This document shows positions 27,572 through 35,950 of a DNA stretch of 64,000 bases, one piece after another. Position 1 is the first letter of the stretch; every line of letters begins with the position of its first letter. This stretch comes from an uncultured Gammaproteobacteria bacterium (GTDB lineage: Bacteria > Pseudomonadota > Gammaproteobacteria > Steroidobacterales > Woeseiaceae): the NCBI GenBank assembly GCA_937899415.1, contig CALBPI010000068.1, positions 1 to 64,000 on the forward strand, read 5' to 3'. The notes beneath the pieces are model-generated. The model ran no database searches and was not told where the DNA came from. It worked only from the letters and a program-made list of their open reading frames with translations. Both the position numbers and the translations under genes were made by a program.

Positions 27572-27647
27572 GCGGGTGTAGCTCAGTTGGTAGAGCGCAA
27601 CCTTGCCAAGGTTGAGGTCGACGGTTCGAACCCGTTCACCCGCTCCA
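27572..27647 (+). tRNA. tRNA-Gly(GCC)
   Basis: A 76-base cloverleaf with encoded CCA. The acceptor stem is GCGGGTG pairing with CACCCGC, the discriminator is U. The anticodon loop TTGCCAA gives anticodon GCC, and the T arm carries GGTTCGAACCC. It corresponds to glyW, first of the glyW-cysT-leuZ cluster that follows pgsA in E. coli. Confidence 0.97.
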
Positions 27648-27654
27648 GGCTCGA

Positions 27655-27686
27655 AACCCGGTCGCACCGCGCGGCCGGGTTTTTTT
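27655..27686 (+). terminator. rho-independent terminator after tRNA-Gly
   Basis: AACCCGG (27655-27661) pairs with CCGGGTT (27675-27681) and runs into a tract of seven T (27680-27686). It ends the tRNA-Gly transcript, so this tRNA is not cotranscribed with the later tRNA-Cys and tRNA-Leu as it is in E. coli. Confidence 0.85.
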
Positions 27687-27727
27687 GTGCCCGCGGGGCA
27701 GGGCGTGCGCAGCCTGACCCACTCGGA

Positions 27728-27744
27728 TATAATTTCACGTGAAA
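27728..27744 (+). promoter_or_regulatory. -10 element overlapped by a 12-base palindrome, probable operator of the homogentisate genes
   Basis: TATAAT at 27728-27733 is directly overlapped by the perfect palindrome TTTCACGTGAAA (27733-27744), 35 bases before the fahA-like ATG. No consensus -35 is visible. A dimeric repressor bound here would block the promoter. HmgR-type regulators control such genes elsewhere, but which protein binds this site is unknown. Confidence 0.55.
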
Positions 27745-27779
27745 CTAATTTCGATTCGACCTCAGGAACGCCTTCCACC

Positions 27780-28760
27780 ATGAAACTCGCCAGCCTCAAA
27801 TCGGGCCGTGATGGCCAGCTCGTCGTTGTCAGCCGTGACCTAACGCGTGCCGTCGCCGCGGCCGATATTGCGCCCACGATGCAGGCCGCGCTCGATGACT
27901 GGGATGCTGTAGCGCCGCGGCTGGCAGGTTTGTTTGACGCGCTGGAGTGCGGTGAGGCTGAGGGCGCCTTCGATTTCGATCAGGCGGCCTGTGACTCGCC
28001 GTTGCCCCGGGCCTACCATTGGGTCGATGGCAGCGCCTACGTCAACCACGTCGAGCTCGTACGCAAGGCGCGTGGCGCCGAGATGCCCGAGAGCTTCTGG
28101 CACGACCCGCTGGTCTACCAGGGTGGCTCCGACACCTTCCTGGGGCCGCGTGATGATATCCCCGTGCCCAGCGAAGACTTCGGTATCGACATGGAAGCAG
28201 AGACGGCCGTAATCACGGGCGATGTGCCCATGGGCACGGCGGCCGAGGATGCGGGGCGGCACGTCAAGCTGCTCATGATCGTCAATGATGTGTCGCTACG
28301 TGGCCTGATTCCTGGTGAGCTCGCCAAGGGCTTTGGGTTCTATCAGTCCAAGCCGTCGAGTGCATTCGCACCCGTGGCTGTGACGCCCGACGAGCTCGGC
28401 GACCACTACGCCGATGGCACGTTTTCGCTGGCGCTTGAGACGCAGCTTAACGGCGAGCTCTTCGGTGCGCCCGAGTGCGGCGTCGACATGACCTTCAATT
28501 TCAATCAGCTCGTCGCGCACGTCAGCAAGACGCGCGCGCTGGGTGCGGGCACGATCATTGGCAGCGGCACGATTTCGAACTACGACCGCAGCAAGGGTTC
28601 GAGCTGTATTGCCGAGAAGCGCATGCTCGAGACGATCGAGCACGGTGAACCGAAGACGCCATTCATGAAGTACGGCGACACCGTGCGCATCGAAATGCGT
28701 GACGGCGACGGCAAATCGATCTTCGGCGTTATCGAGCAAACGGTGGTGCCGGCGTCATGA
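27780..28760 (+). CDS. fumarylacetoacetate hydrolase family protein
   Basis: A 326-residue FAH-fold hydrolase, probably the final enzyme of tyrosine/homogentisate breakdown, splitting fumarylacetoacetate into fumarate and acetoacetate. Visible features are MKLASLKSGRDGQLVVVSRD at the start, PESFWHDPLVYQGGSDTFLG, the metal-site region FGIDMEAETAVITGDVPMGT, and GAGTIIGSGTISNYD. It is shorter than eukaryotic FAH (about 420) but normal for the bacterial FAH next to hmgA. The ATG at 27780 is preferred to an upstream GTG-frame start that would run through the tRNA gene. Its TGA overlaps the hmgA ATG (ATGA). Confidence 0.88.
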   Translation: MKLASLKSGRDGQLVVVSRDLTRAVAAADIAPTMQAALDDWDAVAPRLAGLFDALECGEAEGAFDFDQAACDSPLPRAYHWVDGSAYVNHVELVRKARGAEMPESFWHDPLVYQGGSDTFLGPRDDIPVPSEDFGIDMEAETAVITGDVPMGTAAEDAGRHVKLLMIVNDVSLRGLIPGELAKGFGFYQSKPSSAFAPVAVTPDELGDHYADGTFSLALETQLNGELFGAPECGVDMTFNFNQLVAHVSKTRALGAGTIIGSGTISNYDRSKGSSCIAEKRMLETIEHGEPKTPFMKYGDTVRIEMRDGDGKSIFGVIEQTVVPAS

Positions 28761-30052
28761 GCGTGCAGGGCGCCGAACTGCTGCCGGGTTTCCGCTGCCA
28801 CAAGCAGTCGGAAGCCATCGAGGGCGTGCTGCCCATCGGTCGCAATTCGCCGCAACGCGTTGCCCACGAGCTCTATGCCGAGAAGCTCTCGGGCACGGCG
28901 TTCACGGCGCCGCGTGCCCAGGTGCTGCGTACCTGGCTGTACAGAATCCGGCCCTCGGTGGGGCTGGGGCAGTTCTCGCCGCTCGATCATGCGCGGCTGC
29001 GCTCGGCGCCCGATGCCGAAGGCGTCATGACGCCCAACCAGCTGCGTTGGGGGCCGTTCGATCCCGCGGCCAACGAAGGCGATTTCGTTGACGGTCTCGT
29101 CACGCTGGCCACGACGGGTAGCGCCCTGGGCCAGTCCGGCATCGCCGTGCACCGCTACACGGCCACGCGCTCGATGACGGACCGCTTTTTCTACAACGCG
29201 GATGGCGAGCTGCTCGTTGTGCCGCAGACGGGCACGCTGACCGCCCACACCGAGTGCGGTGTGCTCGAGGTGCCCGTGGGGCACATCCTACTGATCCCGC
29301 GTGGCATGAAGTTTCGTGTTGCCATCGAGACGGCGTCCTGCGGTTTCATCTGTGAGAACTACGGTGCTGCCTTCCAGCTGCCGGAGCGTGGGCCCATTGG
29401 CACCGATGGTCTCGCGAACGACCGAGATTTTGAGAGCCCCGTGGCGGCCTTTGAGGACCGCGAGGGCGACTTCGAACTCGTCGCCAAATTCGGCGGCAAG
29501 CTGTTCTCAGCCCCTATTGGCCACAGCCCGCTCGACGTGGTCGCCTGGCACGGAAACGATGTGCCGTACCGCTATGACCTCGAGCGCTTCAACACGATGG
29601 GCTCGATCAGCTACGACCACCCGGACCCGTCGATCTTCACGGTGCTCACGTCGCCGTCCGACACGCCGGGCACGGCCAACTGCGACTTCGTGATCTTCCC
29701 GCCGCGCTGGTTGGTTATGGAAGACACCTTCCGCCCGCCCTGGTACCACCGCAATGTCATGAGCGAGTTCATGGGCTTGCTCTACGGTGAGTACGACGCC
29801 AAGGCGGCTTCAGGCTTTGGGCCCGGTGGTTCGAGCCTGCACAACTGCATGTCGGGCCACGGCCCGGACACGAAGAGCTACCGCACGGGCACCACCACGG
29901 CGCTCGCGCCGCAGAAGCTCGACCACACGATGGCGTTCATGTTCGAGTCGCGCACGATCCTCGTGCCGACGGAATTCGCGATGCGTGCGCCCGAGCTGCA
30001 CCCGGACTACGCGGACTGCTGGCAGGACCTGCCGCGGGGCCTCGAAAGCTGA
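28757..30052 (+). CDS. hmgA: homogentisate 1,2-dioxygenase
   Basis: Non-heme iron dioxygenase that opens the ring of homogentisate to maleylacetoacetate in phenylalanine/tyrosine catabolism. The 431-residue length is normal. Family motifs are LLPGFRCHKQSEAIEGVLPI near the N terminus, RPSVGLGQFSPLD, PPWYHRNVMSEFMGLLYG with an iron-ligand histidine and glutamate, and LHNCMSGHGPDTKSYRTGTT. It is translationally coupled to the FAH gene. No maleylacetoacetate isomerase or HPPD gene is present in the window, so the pathway is incomplete here. Confidence 0.96.
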   Translation: MSVQGAELLPGFRCHKQSEAIEGVLPIGRNSPQRVAHELYAEKLSGTAFTAPRAQVLRTWLYRIRPSVGLGQFSPLDHARLRSAPDAEGVMTPNQLRWGPFDPAANEGDFVDGLVTLATTGSALGQSGIAVHRYTATRSMTDRFFYNADGELLVVPQTGTLTAHTECGVLEVPVGHILLIPRGMKFRVAIETASCGFICENYGAAFQLPERGPIGTDGLANDRDFESPVAAFEDREGDFELVAKFGGKLFSAPIGHSPLDVVAWHGNDVPYRYDLERFNTMGSISYDHPDPSIFTVLTSPSDTPGTANCDFVIFPPRWLVMEDTFRPPWYHRNVMSEFMGLLYGEYDAKAASGFGPGGSSLHNCMSGHGPDTKSYRTGTTTALAPQKLDHTMAFMFESRTILVPTEFAMRAPELHPDYADCWQDLPRGLES

Positions 30053-30110
30053 CGTTTCGTCTGTGATTCTCCAGGGCGCGCGTGCTATATTTGCGCGCCT
30101 TCACGGCCAC

Positions 30111-30184
30111 GGCTAGGTGGCAGAGTGGTTATGCAGCGGCCTGCAAAGCCGTGTACGCCGGTTCGATTCCGACCCTAGCCTCCA
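30111..30184 (+). tRNA. tRNA-Cys(GCA)
   Basis: A 74-base tRNA with encoded CCA. GGCTAGG pairs with CCTAGCC, and the anticodon loop CTGCAAA gives GCA. A TATATT box at 30086-30091 with a GCGCGCC discriminator is a possible own promoter. It corresponds to cysT of the E. coli glyW-cysT-leuZ cluster, but here hmgA separates it from tRNA-Gly. Confidence 0.96.
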
Positions 30185-30298: not shown

Positions 30299-31468
30299 AT
30301 GGCGTCGACTACAGACTCACAACAGCTGACCGTCTTCGATGCGGCCGATATTGATGTCGTACCCGTAGATGCCGACATCGACACCGCAGTGCTCGAAACC
30401 GAGTCCACGCGCATCGTAGCCGCACTCATGGCGCTTGACCCGGCAGCCCAGGACGATCGTCAAACCGGCCTCGATACGGTTTCGGGCCTGGCCATGGATT
30501 TGCAGCAGCAGTCTGCGCGGCAGCTCGATCTGTTGAACGCGCCCGTGCACCGCATCATCGATGAGGGCGAGGCCGGTGGTAGGGTCGGCATGTCGCTGGC
30601 TGATCTCAAGGTGGCGGTGGAGCGTGTTGATCCGCGTCGGTTCGACTTCGAGCCTGGTTGGTTTTCGCGCATGCTGGGCTACCTGCCGTTTATCGGTACG
30701 CCACTCAAGCGTTACCTCACGCGCTACGAGAGCACGCGCACGGTGATTGACGCTATCGTGCGTTCACTGGACCTGGGCCGCGAACAGCTCAAGCGCGACA
30801 ACGTTGTGCTCGCCGACGACCAGAAAGCCATGCGTGACGCGACGGGTCGCCTGGCGAAGGCCGTGCAACTGGGCCAGCTCATCGACAGCAAGCTCACCGG
30901 AGAGGCAGACGCACTCGAGTCCGGTTCCGAGCAGCACCGCTTCCTTTCCGAGGACGTGCTCTTCCCGCTGCGCCAGCGGGTCATCGATTTGCAGCAGCAA
31001 CTGGCTGTGAACCAGCAAGGCATCCTGGCGACGGAGCTCATCAGCCGAAACAACAGAGAGCTCGTGCGCGGTGTCGATCGCGCGATCAATGTGACGGCGC
31101 GCGCGCTCAAGGTGGCCGCGACGGTGTCGATCGCACTCGCGGATCAGAAGGCTGTTATCAACAAGGTCAACAGCGTGAATGAAGTGACCTCTGACCTTAT
31201 CGCGGGCACGGCTGAGCAGCTCAAGAACCAGGGTTCTGAAATTCAGAAGCAGGCGGCTTCGGCAATGCTCGACATTAATGCTCTGAAGTCTGCATTCGCC
31301 GATCTCGATGTGGCCATCGACGATGTGGCCTCATTCCGCTCCGAGGCATTACCCAAGATGGCCGCCTCGGTCGCGGAGCTCGAAGTCGTAACCACGAAGG
31401 CCGCGGCGTCTATCGAACGACTCGACGCTTCGCGTCGTCCTGAGGGGCGTATCCAGATCGACGTGTGA
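30299..31468 (+). CDS. TelA/KlaA-family protein (toxic anion resistance family)
   Basis: A 389-residue, cytoplasmic, largely alpha-helical protein. The TelA family core is seen at about 122-200: WFSRMLGYLPFIGTPLKRYL, then RYESTRTVIDAIVRSLDLGR and EQLKRDNVVLADDQKAM. The C-terminal half is a long helical/coiled-coil region rich in A, Q and V. Family knowledge: TelA (PF05816) is named from plasmid tellurite resistance (KlaA) but its biochemistry is unclear; homologues often pair with XpaC-like membrane proteins. It is the first gene of a four-gene operon between two tRNAs, and its TGA overlaps the GTG of the helicase gene. Tellurite resistance should not be assumed. Confidence 0.85.
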   Translation: MASTTDSQQLTVFDAADIDVVPVDADIDTAVLETESTRIVAALMALDPAAQDDRQTGLDTVSGLAMDLQQQSARQLDLLNAPVHRIIDEGEAGGRVGMSLADLKVAVERVDPRRFDFEPGWFSRMLGYLPFIGTPLKRYLTRYESTRTVIDAIVRSLDLGREQLKRDNVVLADDQKAMRDATGRLAKAVQLGQLIDSKLTGEADALESGSEQHRFLSEDVLFPLRQRVIDLQQQLAVNQQGILATELISRNNRELVRGVDRAINVTARALKVAATVSIALADQKAVINKVNSVNEVTSDLIAGTAEQLKNQGSEIQKQAASAMLDINALKSAFADLDVAIDDVASFRSEALPKMAASVAELEVVTTKAAASIERLDASRRPEGRIQIDV

Positions 31469-34098
31469 GCGTATTCCCGGACGACCTGCGCTTTATCCAT
31501 GAGTGGCGGCCGTACCAGGGCCGCCTGCTCGAGGAATTGCACGATCACCTGCATGATCGCCACCTGCATATCGTCGCGGCGCCTGGCGCCGGCAAGACGG
31601 TGCTGGGTCTTGAGGTCATCCGGCAGTTGGGCGTGCCGGCGCTCGTGCTGGTGCCTTCGCTCACCATTCGCGGGCAGTGGCTCAAGCACTTTCGTGACGT
31701 ATTCCAGTCGGAGGACCCGAACAAGGCGGTGCTTGCCAGCAGCGCGCTCGATGCGCCAGCGGCGCTGACCGTCTCGACCTACCAGGCGCTTTATTCGGCG
31801 GGCTTCGATGACGACGCCGAGTTGCCAGAGGCGCTTATGCAGATTGAAACGCTGGTGCTCGACGAAGCGCATCACCTTCGTAATGAGTGGTGGAAATCGC
31901 TGGTCAGCCTGCGCGAGCGGCTGCCTGAATTGCGCGTTGTCTCGCTGACCGCAACACCGCCCTACGACGTGCCGCCCCGCGAGTGGAATCGCTACTTTGA
32001 GATGTGCGGCCCGATTGACGCCATCATCTCGATTCCGGAACTTGTTAAGGCCGGCAACCTGTGCCCGCACGAGGACTACGTTTTCTTCAGTGTGCCGGAG
32101 CCCGCGGAATCAGCGGCGATCACGGCATTCCGGGAACAGGTGGATCGTCTGCAGTCCTGGTTGCTCAGCGAGCCCGACTTCGCGCGTGCCTTGCTGGGTC
32201 ACCCCTGGTTCAGCAAGTTTGATTCGGACACCCATCGTGAATCGGTGTTTGAGCATCCCGAGTTGTTCTCAGCAATGATCGTCTGCCTCGAAGCGATGGG
32301 CCACGAATGTGGTGCGCAGAAGGACTACCTGGGCGTTGCAGGCGAGACGACGCCGAAGCCCGACGAGGGCTGGTTTGAGATCCTCCTGACCGAGCTCATT
32401 TCGGACCGCGCCGACCGTTTTGATCTTTCGGAGGGCTTTCGGCGCGAACTTCGGCAACGGCTGTCGGCCATGCATGTCGTTCACCGCAAAAAGGTCGTGC
32501 TGACGAATCCCGAGTCGCTGGATCGGTCATTGCGTCACAGTGAGAGCAAGCTCGACAGCGTCGTTGCGATCGTTGGCAAGGAGCACGCGGCACTCGGCGA
32601 TGCGCTTCGCATGGTGGTGCTGACCGACTACGTTCAGGGCGGCCAGGTCCGGAGCGGAGGCACGAGCCGGCGCCTTGGCGCGGTGCCGATACTCGATCGT
32701 GTTCGGGAGCAACACGGCACCGCGCTTCGCGCTGGCCTACTGACGGGTAACCTGGTGATTGTTCCGCGGCAACTTCGCGAGCTTCTGAGTGCAGCCATGC
32801 AGCGGCACGGCGCCAGTGACGCGCCGCGGTTCATTCCTTTGCCGGCCGATGGCGAGTACCTGCAGATCAACGTTGATTCGGGGACGCGGCTGGTGGTCAC
32901 AGCGGCGGTAACGGACCTGCTCAATGCCGGTGAGCTACACGTGCTTGTGGGTACCGTCGCTTTGCTCGGGCAGGGCTGGGACGCGCCTGCCACAAACACG
33001 CTGGTCATCGCGTCGGCAACGTCGTCCTATGTGCAGACGAATCAAGTCCGCGGGCGCGCGATCCGGATTGACCCGGCCAATCCCCGGAAGGTTTCAAACA
33101 TCTGGCACCTCGTGTGCGTGGAGCCGGACACCGGTCACGGTGGTTCGGACTTCCACAAACTGCGCACACGCTTTTCGGCGTTCGAGGGCTTGAGCTACGA
33201 CGATGACACGATTCGCAGTGGATTCGAGCGCCTGTTCGAGGCACCGGCGCGCTGGACCGAGGTCGAGGTGGCACGCCTTAACGCCCGTTCGACCGTGCAC
33301 GCCGCAGCGCGCGACCGAATTCGCCACGGCTGGGAAAAAGCACTCGAGCCCACGAGCGACGCGCGCGTCAATGGCATCGTCGAGGAGGTCAGTGTTGGGC
33401 GACGTGAGATTGTTGACTCGCGCGTGTTGAAGCACCCAGCCCGCCGCAGCCTGCTGCCGTTGACGGTCCTGGGTGGCTACATCCCGGCAGCCATGCTCGT
33501 GCTGCCAGTGACGGCTGGTGCGCCGCCGATTGTCTGGGCCCTGCATGGGGCCGCGCTGGGTGGATTGATCCACATTGGGCGAATTCCGCGCTTGATGCGC
33601 GACTGGTGGCAAGTGATGCGCAACGGCATGGGCCCGGCGGCATTGCGGCGCGTCGCCGAAGCGATTCTCGAGAGTCTTTGCGAGGCCGAGGTCATCACAA
33701 CGTCCAGGGCGTCGCTGTCGCTGTCAGTCACGCCTTGGCCCGGCGGTCGAACCGTCTGTTCTCTGCGCGGCGGCACACTGCGGGACGCAGACGTCTTCGT
33801 GCGGTGTATGGAGGAAGTGCTGGATCCCGTGGAGAATCCGCGCTACCTGCTGTTTCATCCGCACCGGTCGTGGCGTCGGGCGCGACGCGGCGATGGGGAC
33901 TATCACGCGGTGCCCAGCGCACTGGGCCGCCGGCGCGAGGCCGAGATCCTTGCGCGCCATTGGCGTCGCCTCATTGGTCGCTGCGAGCTGGTCTACACAC
34001 GACGCGCCGAAGGGCGTGTCCAGTTGTTGAAGGCACGCGCCCGCGCCTGGGTTAATCTCGGGCGGAAGATGGTCAGCCGGCAGAGCGTTTGGCGTTGA
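31465..34098 (+). CDS. superfamily 2 helicase with C-terminal hydrophobic hairpin
   Basis: An 877-residue SF2 helicase. The motifs are WRPYQGRLL (Q-like), AAPGAGKTVLG with K44-T45, DEAH at 133-136, SLTATP at 160-165, VGTVALLGQGWDAPATNTLV (motif V, about 495) and QVRGRAIRID (motif VI, about 525). A helical insert lies between the two RecA domains. After the core, residues about 662-705 form a strongly hydrophobic stretch (LLPLTVLGGYIPAAMLVLPV and PIVWALHGAALGGLIHIG), likely two membrane helices, followed by a basic 170-residue domain with YLLFHPHRSWRRARRG. No nuclease motif is visible. It is coupled to telA (GTGA overlap). The function is unknown; the fold resembles restriction-type translocases. 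Confidence 0.8.
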   Translation: MSVFPDDLRFIHEWRPYQGRLLEELHDHLHDRHLHIVAAPGAGKTVLGLEVIRQLGVPALVLVPSLTIRGQWLKHFRDVFQSEDPNKAVLASSALDAPAALTVSTYQALYSAGFDDDAELPEALMQIETLVLDEAHHLRNEWWKSLVSLRERLPELRVVSLTATPPYDVPPREWNRYFEMCGPIDAIISIPELVKAGNLCPHEDYVFFSVPEPAESAAITAFREQVDRLQSWLLSEPDFARALLGHPWFSKFDSDTHRESVFEHPELFSAMIVCLEAMGHECGAQKDYLGVAGETTPKPDEGWFEILLTELISDRADRFDLSEGFRRELRQRLSAMHVVHRKKVVLTNPESLDRSLRHSESKLDSVVAIVGKEHAALGDALRMVVLTDYVQGGQVRSGGTSRRLGAVPILDRVREQHGTALRAGLLTGNLVIVPRQLRELLSAAMQRHGASDAPRFIPLPADGEYLQINVDSGTRLVVTAAVTDLLNAGELHVLVGTVALLGQGWDAPATNTLVIASATSSYVQTNQVRGRAIRIDPANPRKVSNIWHLVCVEPDTGHGGSDFHKLRTRFSAFEGLSYDDDTIRSGFERLFEAPARWTEVEVARLNARSTVHAAARDRIRHGWEKALEPTSDARVNGIVEEVSVGRREIVDSRVLKHPARRSLLPLTVLGGYIPAAMLVLPVTAGAPPIVWALHGAALGGLIHIGRIPRLMRDWWQVMRNGMGPAALRRVAEAILESLCEAEVITTSRASLSLSVTPWPGGRTVCSLRGGTLRDADVFVRCMEEVLDPVENPRYLLFHPHRSWRRARRGDGDYHAVPSALGRRREAEILARHWRRLIGRCELVYTRRAEGRVQLLKARARAWVNLGRKMVSRQSVWR

Positions 34099-34142
34099 AC
34101 AAGCAGCGACAGGACTTGATCGTGCCCGGGGCAGGGCAAACC

Positions 34143-34847
34143 ATGCTGGCCTACGGCGTTCGACGGTTGTTTCGTGATCGATGGACGGCAGCCATCGCAA
34201 TCATTGCTGTCCTGGTGATGGGGCTCGCGGTCGCGGGCGTGGTGGCGCGCATGGCGTTCGCAGTTGCCGCTGTGCTGCTGCCACTCGCGGTTGCCGCAGT
34301 TTTTGGATGGCGTCGGCACGGTTACGCGTCGGACTACGTGGCGGAGGCGGCTGCGGCATTGGCCCGGAATCGCCAGCGTCGGCTGGGCGGCATTCGCGCG
34401 GCGCTTTACGATCTCGCCAACGAGTCCGATCGCAAAAGCCCCGTGGGGGACCTGGGTGCCGAGGCACTGGATCGATTCACACTGTCGCAGACCCTGTTCG
34501 AGCGCTTCTCAGACTTGCTGGGTCGCAAGCTCGTACCCGGTGAACTCGCACACACGCGTTATCGCGAGACGGCAGAGCGCTATATGCTCGGTATGTCTGA
34601 CCAACTGGGCCGCGCTGCCGACGCGCTGCAAGCCACGGATGACAGCGCCGACGCTACTGCGTTGTCAGGCGTGCGTGCGCATCTGTCCGAGCTGGCCGAG
34701 GCGCAGGCTGCGCTCGAGCGGGCGGCCCGCAAACTCGAGGCGCTGCCTGACATTGATGCGGGGGTGCGTGCGGATGTCAGCGAGCTCACGCGTCAGCTTG
34801 ACCAGATCGGTGAGCAGATGGGGCGTTTGCAGGCCGACGAGACCTAG
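34143..34847 (+). CDS. membrane-anchored helical protein, possibly XpaC-like
   Basis: A protein of about 234 residues that I do not firmly recognise. Two adjacent membrane helices near the N terminus (AAIAIIAVLVMGLAVAGVVA and AFAVAAVLLPLAVAAVFGW) are followed by a cytoplasmic, charged, helical domain ending in coiled-coil-like heptads (ELAEAQAALERAARKLEAL). This architecture resembles XpaC (PF10112), the usual partner of TelA in Bacillus, including a TRYRETAERYMLGMSDQLG segment. Possible starts are TTG 34089, TTG 34095 (overlapping the helicase stop as TTGA), GTG 34122 and ATG 34143; the last follows GCAGGG and is used. The XpaC link is inference. Confidence 0.6.
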   Translation: MLAYGVRRLFRDRWTAAIAIIAVLVMGLAVAGVVARMAFAVAAVLLPLAVAAVFGWRRHGYASDYVAEAAAALARNRQRRLGGIRAALYDLANESDRKSPVGDLGAEALDRFTLSQTLFERFSDLLGRKLVPGELAHTRYRETAERYMLGMSDQLGRAADALQATDDSADATALSGVRAHLSELAEAQAALERAARKLEALPDIDAGVRADVSELTRQLDQIGEQMGRLQADET

Positions 34848-34926
34848 CAGGGTGGTTTGGTCTTTGGTGCTGGGCGTTTGTGTGTTCCCCGCTACGAGTC
34901 AGTAACAAGCAGGTGGACTTGCGACG

Positions 34927-35778
34927 ATGCGCAGCATTTCAGCTGACATAGAACCCGAAGCGAAGCTGTCGAAGCACCTGTATGACCTGGCGCATGCCTA
35001 CTGGTCATTCTCCGCGCTGTCGTTGACGCAATTCGGCCTGCTGATCGCCGCCGCCGTGCTCTTACTCGCGAGCGACTCCGGTGTTGTCGACAAGTCGACA
35101 GTCGGTTTCCTGTGGGCGACGATGCTCATCCTGGCGACGTTCGCTTGGATCGCCACGCCAATCGCGACGTTTCGGCTGGCGACAGCCGTCGAGTCGAGCC
35201 GACCTGCGGCCTGGACCTTGGGCGGCTTTGTTCCGGTGCTATCGCTCATCGCCTTATTCGTGTTGCCCGCGAGGGCGCAGGTGCAATTCGCGCAAGCGCA
35301 GGTGCACTATCGATTCTTCGGACAGAAGTTGCCCTTCCACGCCGATTGGTCCCGTCCGCACCTCGTGTCATTGGCCGTGGTGTTTGCGGTGCTGGCCATG
35401 CTGTTGGGATACGCGGTGACCACAGCGCTTGCGGCGCAGGGCGCACCCTCGCCACTCGTCGTGCAGATGGCCAGTCTTGCGTCGCGGACGGTATTGCCAG
35501 CGATCGTCGTGGCTGTGCTCTTATTCCTGTCGTACGGTCAGGCATTGACGGCGACCCAGTCGCTTCGACTCGCGGTTTACGCACACGCAAACGCCATCCT
35601 GGTTCTGGTCTATCGCCTCTGGCAACGTCAGGAGTTCATCAACACGTACGGCTCCGCCGAGGTGCTCGAGCAAGTCATTCAGCTCGAGCTGCGTTACCTC
35701 GTGAGCTCCATTCCCGTCACGGCGGTTATTGTGTGGCTGGTCCGCCGAGTTGGGGCAACACGTCGCGTGGCAGCGTGA
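34927..35778 (+). CDS. polytopic membrane protein of unknown function
   Basis: A 283-residue protein with about six or seven membrane segments, including LTQFGLLIAAAVLLLASD, FLWATMLILATFAWIATPIA, TLGGFVPVLSLIALFVLPA, LAVVFAVLAMLLGYAVTTA, TVLPAIVVAVLLFLSYG and a C-terminal SSIPVTAVIVWLVRR. No signal peptide, catalytic motif or transporter signature is recognised. It is the last gene of the TelA-helicase operon, 79 bases after the XpaC-like gene, and is followed by an inverted repeat and tRNA-Leu. It may form the membrane part of the same system; this is inferred from position only. Confidence 0.7.
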   Translation: MRSISADIEPEAKLSKHLYDLAHAYWSFSALSLTQFGLLIAAAVLLLASDSGVVDKSTVGFLWATMLILATFAWIATPIATFRLATAVESSRPAAWTLGGFVPVLSLIALFVLPARAQVQFAQAQVHYRFFGQKLPFHADWSRPHLVSLAVVFAVLAMLLGYAVTTALAAQGAPSPLVVQMASLASRTVLPAIVVAVLLFLSYGQALTATQSLRLAVYAHANAILVLVYRLWQRQEFINTYGSAEVLEQVIQLELRYLVSSIPVTAVIVWLVRRVGATRRVAA

Positions 35779-35863: not shown

Positions 35864-35950
35864 GCCCGGGTGGCGGAATTGGTAGACGCTGCGGACTTAA
35901 AATCCGCTGTCCGAAAGGACGTGTGGGTTCGAGTCCCACCCCGGGCACCA
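35864..35950 (+). tRNA. tRNA-Leu(UAA)
   Basis: An 87-base class II tRNA with encoded CCA. GCCCGGG pairs with CCCGGGC, the anticodon loop CTTAAAA gives UAA, and a long variable arm (TGTCCGAAAGGACG) is present. It corresponds to leuZ, third of the E. coli glyW-cysT-leuZ cluster; here it is 5.7 kb from tRNA-Cys. Confidence 0.97.

Follow-up and report, generated by a model that had tools for sequence, protein, structure and literature searches.

An operon in the genome of an uncultured gammaproteobacterium joins a TelA-family gene and an SF2 helicase gene to two genes for membrane proteins, and the question it raises is whether TelA and the helicase work as one system or only share a place in the chromosome. 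The window, that is, the whole stretch of DNA analyzed here, comprises 64,000 nt. A preliminary description placed four same-strand genes between two tRNA genes, and the ORF coordinates and ARAGORN tRNA predictions agree with that layout. The features used below, all on the plus strand, are as follows:

30111-30184 (+): tRNA-Cys(GCA), left border of the insertion (ARAGORN)
30299-31468 (+): gene 1, TelA, 389 aa, predicted soluble and helical (PF05816, E=1.5e-64)
31465-34098 (+): gene 2, SF2 helicase, 877 aa, GTG start, of a membrane-anchored family (ResIII 1.6e-20, DEAD 2.3e-10)
33421-33624 (+): predicted two-helix membrane hairpin of the helicase, residues 653-720 (helices of the AF2 model and hydrophobic segment)
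33631-34095 (+): conserved C-terminal domain of the helicase, residues 723-877 (AF2, Foldseek, Pfam)
34089-34847 (+): gene 3, putative TelA-partner protein, 252 aa, TTG start, two TM helices and a helical tail with GELxHxRY (BLASTP, phmmer)
34927-35778 (+): gene 4, orphan polytopic membrane protein, 283 aa, about five TM segments (hydropathy)
35864-35950 (+): tRNA-Leu(TAA), right border of the insertion (ARAGORN)

The four ORFs are real genes and not chance. The TelA and helicase frames overlap by 4 nt and the helicase and gene 3 frames by 10 nt, which argues for translational coupling of genes 1-3; gene 4 follows gene 3 at a spacing of 79 nt. Base composition of the operon is the same as that of its surroundings, and a scan for sigma-70-type promoters at the operon found none and was uninformative. 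For genes 1-3, the overlaps bear out the earlier view of one tight operon. The TelA and SF2 helicase assignments were likewise confirmed by the Pfam values listed above, as were genes 3 and 4 as membrane proteins by their predicted TM segments. Two features were absent from that description: the membrane hairpin in the helicase and the membership of gene 3 in a TelA-linked family.

The surrounding tract, uvrC-pgsA-tRNA-Gly-tRNA-Cys-tRNA-Leu, is recognizable in the window. Between cysT and leuZ, the gap measures 8-53 bp in 17 of the 29 relatives with a tRNA-Leu locus and 5.7 kb in the window; in others, it spans 0.7-4.9 kb and holds other, unrelated genes. The glyW-cysT-leuZ tract is an insertion hotspot, and in Dickeya, horizontally acquired clusters are bordered by these three tRNAs as well (PMC9765074). 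Integration by duplication of a tRNA tail was considered for the operon and rejected, as neither the tRNA-Cys nor the tRNA-Leu 3' end has a second copy in the window. Partial copies of the tRNA-Leu 3' part lie ~10 kb from the intact gene in two relatives (G029:C22:42009-42065 and G032:C4:81263-81319), which is what attachment sites of an element integrated at this locus would look like. The tract of the window also contains a second insertion, from tRNA-Gly to tRNA-Cys (27572-30184), with ORFs at 27603-28760 and 28757-30052 that we take, from reading their sequences, to resemble fumarylacetoacetase and homogentisate dioxygenase, respectively.

The biochemistry of TelA has been obscure for decades; in Bacillus and Listeria, the protein pairs with XpaC. 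Gene 1 scored 218.6 bits against PF05816 (cut-off, 30), covering positions 39-331 of the 332-position profile, and by this measure is a genuine TelA. Its closest relatives share 48.7% (L232) and 47.5% identity with it, and both have a partner gene beside TelA. The preliminary description considered TelA to be tied to toxic anions and envelope stress by name only. This is contradicted by a Listeria telA disruption mutant with raised sensitivity to both tellurite and nisin (Collins et al. 2010, cited in PMC12791056). Furthermore, the TelA pair of Lactococcus is induced under membrane stress in the CesSR response (PMC3139573), and TelA in Ter systems has been proposed to be a submembrane component that blocks entry of phages or xenobiotics (PMC7824862).

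Gene 3 had no Pfam match above cut-off and no relative in 196 genomes of the order. In a two-sequence BLASTP comparison, it matched the protein encoded directly upstream of TelA on a Vibrio plasmid (6e-08), and phmmer linked it to the TelA-adjacent proteins of two gammaproteobacterial genomes, L231 and L232 (9.1e-07 and 1.7e-07, respectively). A GELxHxRY motif is common to gene 3 and its TelA-upstream relatives. With a profile of two Vibrio proteins built without gene 3, gene 3 ranked first of 5,352 ORFs (E=4e-4; next, 1.2). A profile that combined gene 3 with the Vibrio proteins matched the 313-341-aa neighbors of the next TelA group by hhalign (97.5%, E=6e-12), a signal contributed partly by the Vibrio rows, as gene 3 alone gave 14.5%. 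Searches with the partner-family profile found 11 other loci, all beside TelA, including four (L211, L214, L216 and L233) outside the set used to build the profile. Since the family lies directly upstream of TelA in these loci, gene 3 is likely to be a TelA partner as well. The family as defined here has two N-terminal TM helices, a helical tail, a GELxxxR motif and a position beside TelA, and gene 3 qualifies. We therefore assign it as what, on the evidence of these comparisons, is a distant member of an unannotated two-TM TelA-partner family. Two further candidates were rejected: XpaC/Halogen_Hydrol (PF10112), with no Pfam match at E <= 1 and an hhalign probability of 4.3% against XpaC relatives, and the 226-aa protein downstream of TelA-vWA in Sphaerotilus, to which gene 3 has no real similarity. 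Elsewhere, the gene order is partner-TelA, whereas the window has TelA-helicase-partner, with gene 3 separated from TelA by the helicase gene. As far as gene content and order tell, the arrangement is that of a helicase inserted, with altered gene order, into a known kind of TelA-plus-membrane-partner module. Gene 4 is an orphan membrane protein, with no relative in 196 order genomes, 219 class genomes, plasmids or viral contigs and no Pfam match above cut-off.

SF2 helicases are normally soluble. The window helicase aligns with 44 relatives, with conservation along the whole protein, and the GxGKT (Walker A), DE.H (DEAH) and QxRGRxIR columns that mark SF2 membership are invariant across the 45 aligned members. 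The closest counterparts of the core are XPB, FANCM and RIG-I-like motors, with XPB/RIG-I-like matches of Z up to 24.8 (371 residues, rmsd 4.3). In an AF2 model (pLDDT 85, pTM 0.81), two hairpin helices, at residues 653-682 and 688-720, follow the core. A hydrophobic segment is present at the hairpin in 80 of 81 aligned members (19-residue mean KD of at least 1.6), and two hydrophobic windows at a threshold of at least 1.2 occur in 66 of 81, the second being weaker in one Streptococcus group. Hydrophobicity is kept across the family, while the hairpin sequence itself is barely conserved. Arg-rich flanks on both sides of the hairpin suggest that the motor and the C-terminal domain are both cytoplasmic.

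The C-terminal domain (residues 723-877) carries conserved NPRY, DYHAVP, YTR and EGR..LL motifs and, modeled alone with AF2, reached a pLDDT of 89.5 and a pTM of 0.85. It matched no Pfam family among the 45 members and no PDB entry by Foldseek at E <= 0.001. Because VIA-align returned only middling matches, to ferredoxin-like arrangements (best Z 6.2, 77 residues, rmsd 3.0), no relative can be named for this domain. If a membrane-hairpin helicase family is defined, as here, by a hairpin and the conserved C-terminal domain after the core, the window protein belongs to it. Its position in the family tree is uncertain, as it forms the longest branch (1.52; median, 0.32). The searches recognized neither a nuclease nor any other effector domain, and no paper on a membrane-bound bacterial helicase in immunity was found in the open-access literature. 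The weak matches that PADLOC gave for the helicase (PbeA, type I REase and DpdF) were rejected because they covered generic motor domains only, as were two PHROG DNA-helicase matches that covered the core alone.

Full-length relatives of the helicase, at 31-39% identity, were detected at 80 other loci in GTDB genomes from eight or more phyla (Planctomycetota, Pseudomonadota, Bacillota, Elusimicrobiota, Bacteroidota, Balneolota, Verrucomicrobiota and others), nearly always as a lone gene with variable neighbors. In line with an accessory, patchy distribution, one full-length copy (in G029) and a 291-aa remnant (in G056) were present among 59 relatives, and three clear members besides the window protein among 398 genomes of the phylum. 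The family is widespread, accessory and apparently undescribed. In mitis-group streptococci, the position of the helicase is constant, and the cassettes directly after it vary. Several kinds of type I restriction-modification (R-M) genes occur at L048, L051, L056 and further loci; the other cassettes include a type IIG enzyme at L060, a type II methyltransferase at L062, HerA at L075 and a type I methyltransferase at L077. A scan of 106 helicase-neighbor proteins gave one match to GajA. The streptococcal R-M adjacency may link the helicase family to defense and is a lead rather than a proof. Neighbors in other phyla are mostly metabolic or regulatory genes, and a Paenibacillus plasmid copy is surrounded by ordinary genes. 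The defense association proposed at the outset finds support, for the helicase family, in the streptococci.

Several helicase loci showed further arrangements. In the Phycisphaerae-type loci L012, L015, L016, L025, L053, L082 and L084, a small membrane protein is encoded 0-6 nt upstream of the helicase. It is a DUF1294 protein in the two members scanned and may represent a different membrane partner of the helicase in another lineage. At L028 and L032, in a Clostridiales and an Erysipelotrichaceae genome, the helicase stands between genes of 389 and ~380 aa, 19 and 34 nt away, with which it may form a three-gene operon. Like gene 3 in the window, a 165-aa ORF in G029 (L088:11511-12008) overlaps the helicase 3' end by 10 nt; it has no TM segment and no Pfam match. 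The helicase of the Rhodovulum plasmid pRSMBA (L176; 8848-11183) is probably a decayed copy; its annotation falls into two adjoining pieces.

We then return to whether TelA and the helicase travel together. TelA was found beside the helicase at 0 of 80 helicase loci, the helicase beside TelA at 0 of 32 TelA loci (order relatives, phylum and plasmids), and gene 3 at 0 of 80 helicase loci; for the helicase loci, TelA and gene 3 were sought with profiles built here, and more than 3 kb was available on both sides in 61 of 80. The only same-family genome with a full-length helicase relative, G029, had no TelA match in the genome. Partners in other TelA modules are vWA, SBP/OmpA-like or SPFH proteins, without helicases. 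Viral contigs contained no match to any of the four proteins, and no second copy of the operon was present among the 80 helicase loci, the 32 TelA loci or the plasmid, phage and viral-contig collections. Within the collections searched, the TelA-helicase pairing is therefore private to the window lineage. The four-gene system put forward in the preliminary description does not withstand these counts, a lack of co-occurrence that the description itself named as refuting it, or the lack of relatives of gene 4. Nor is the locus a housekeeping one.

The reading that we put first, if tentatively, is a lineage-specific accessory operon in which a motor acting on nucleic acid is tethered at the inner membrane by a TelA scaffold, with defense against incoming DNA as its most likely purpose. 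TelA would serve as a submembrane scaffold brought by gene 3 to the cytoplasmic membrane, at its inner face, where the hairpin would hold the helicase beside it, with gene 4 as an additional membrane part. The complex would use ATP to work on, or translocate along, nucleic acid that reaches the membrane, coupled to the TelA scaffold, and its target would most likely be phage or plasmid DNA. In favor of such tethering, we count the recurrent partner-TelA pair, the hairpin, the overlaps, the hotspot, the patchiness, the streptococcal R-M genes and the proposal for TelA in Ter systems. Against it, we count the missing second example of the operon, the occurrence of the helicase without TelA elsewhere including G029, the ordinary neighbors outside streptococci and the lack of a recognized effector domain.

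The closest rival, not firmly separated from tethering and in our view quite possible, is that the helicase and the TelA/partner genes are independent cargo stacked in the hotspot, sharing a transcript and working separately. This would fit the zero co-occurrence in both directions, the unrelated genes in the hotspot of relatives and the mostly solitary helicase. It sits less well with reading-frame overlaps on both sides of the helicase and with a helicase that splits a normally adjacent TelA/partner pair; the long branch of the window helicase also speaks against it, being expected (not proven) for adaptation to new partners. We consider unlikely an operon for tolerance of envelope stress or toxic anions, in which the helicase would handle RNA or DNA near the membrane outside defense. 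The ties of TelA to nisin and tellurite tolerance in Listeria (PMC12791056) and to the CesSR response in Lactococcus (PMC3139573), together with the membrane link of all four genes, agree with such a role, but the helicase family is accessory overall and flanks R-M genes in streptococci, and helicases are not among the partners of other TelA modules. A dedicated, horizontally spread TelA-helicase defense system, as first proposed, could draw on the operon structure and accessory status but is largely refuted by the absence of a second instance and highly improbable.

Going back to the tethered motor, a wider proposal that we regard as rather doubtful is that undescribed membrane-anchored SF2 helicases act, normally alone, at the inner membrane against incoming DNA and that one was captured here by a TelA/partner scaffold, joining envelope sensing and translocation. 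Found in eight or more phyla with its hairpin and conserved C-terminal domain, patchy in distribution and bordering R-M cassettes in streptococci, the helicase family is a new candidate for membrane-sited nucleic-acid defense or uptake control. The partner family, in turn, gives gene 3 a putative role and provides a handle on TelA's binding at the membrane.

Among known systems, Zorya also combines membrane proteins and an SF2 helicase within one operon, but the four proteins gave no Zorya or MotA/MotB-like match at E <= 1 (Pfam and PADLOC). Hna and Hachiman HamB resemble gene 2 as SF2 helicases of ~850-900 aa. Hna ends in a PD-(D/E)XK nuclease (PMC13381803), whereas the window helicase core is followed by the membrane hairpin and a conserved domain without recognized relatives; in this domain, no Pfam nuclease family and no significant fold match indicated PD-(D/E)XK, in libraries that may be without Hna structures. 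For Hachiman, no HamA match was obtained at E <= 1, and HamB matched weakly in 1 of 45 helicase family members. Ter systems (TerB/C/D/F and TelA) share TelA as a proposed submembrane component, but the four proteins of the operon have no TerB, TerC, TerD or TerF domains by Pfam. XpaC-TelA operons (B. subtilis xpaC-yaaN, Listeria lmo1966-lmo1967 and the XpaC-TelA-SPFH/GYF loci of order relatives) similarly place TelA beside a two-TM helical membrane protein; the window differs in a gene 3 that is not detectably XpaC/PF10112, in lacking an SPFH gene and in having a helicase. The vWA-SBP/OmpA-partner-TelA loci of Vibrio plasmids (L178 and L180), to which L232 is similar in gene sizes and order, contain the same TelA subgroup and partner family as genes 1 and 3, but in partner-TelA order, with vWA and SBP/OmpA genes and no helicase. 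Finally, the single-gene SF2 helicases of streptococci, rhizobia and planctomycetes, annotated as 'DEAD/DEAH box helicase family protein', share full-length homology, the hairpin and the C-terminal domain with gene 2; they are not linked to TelA, and the window protein is very divergent from them. The main interest thus lies in this helicase family itself and its putative capture by a TelA module rather than in a four-gene system.
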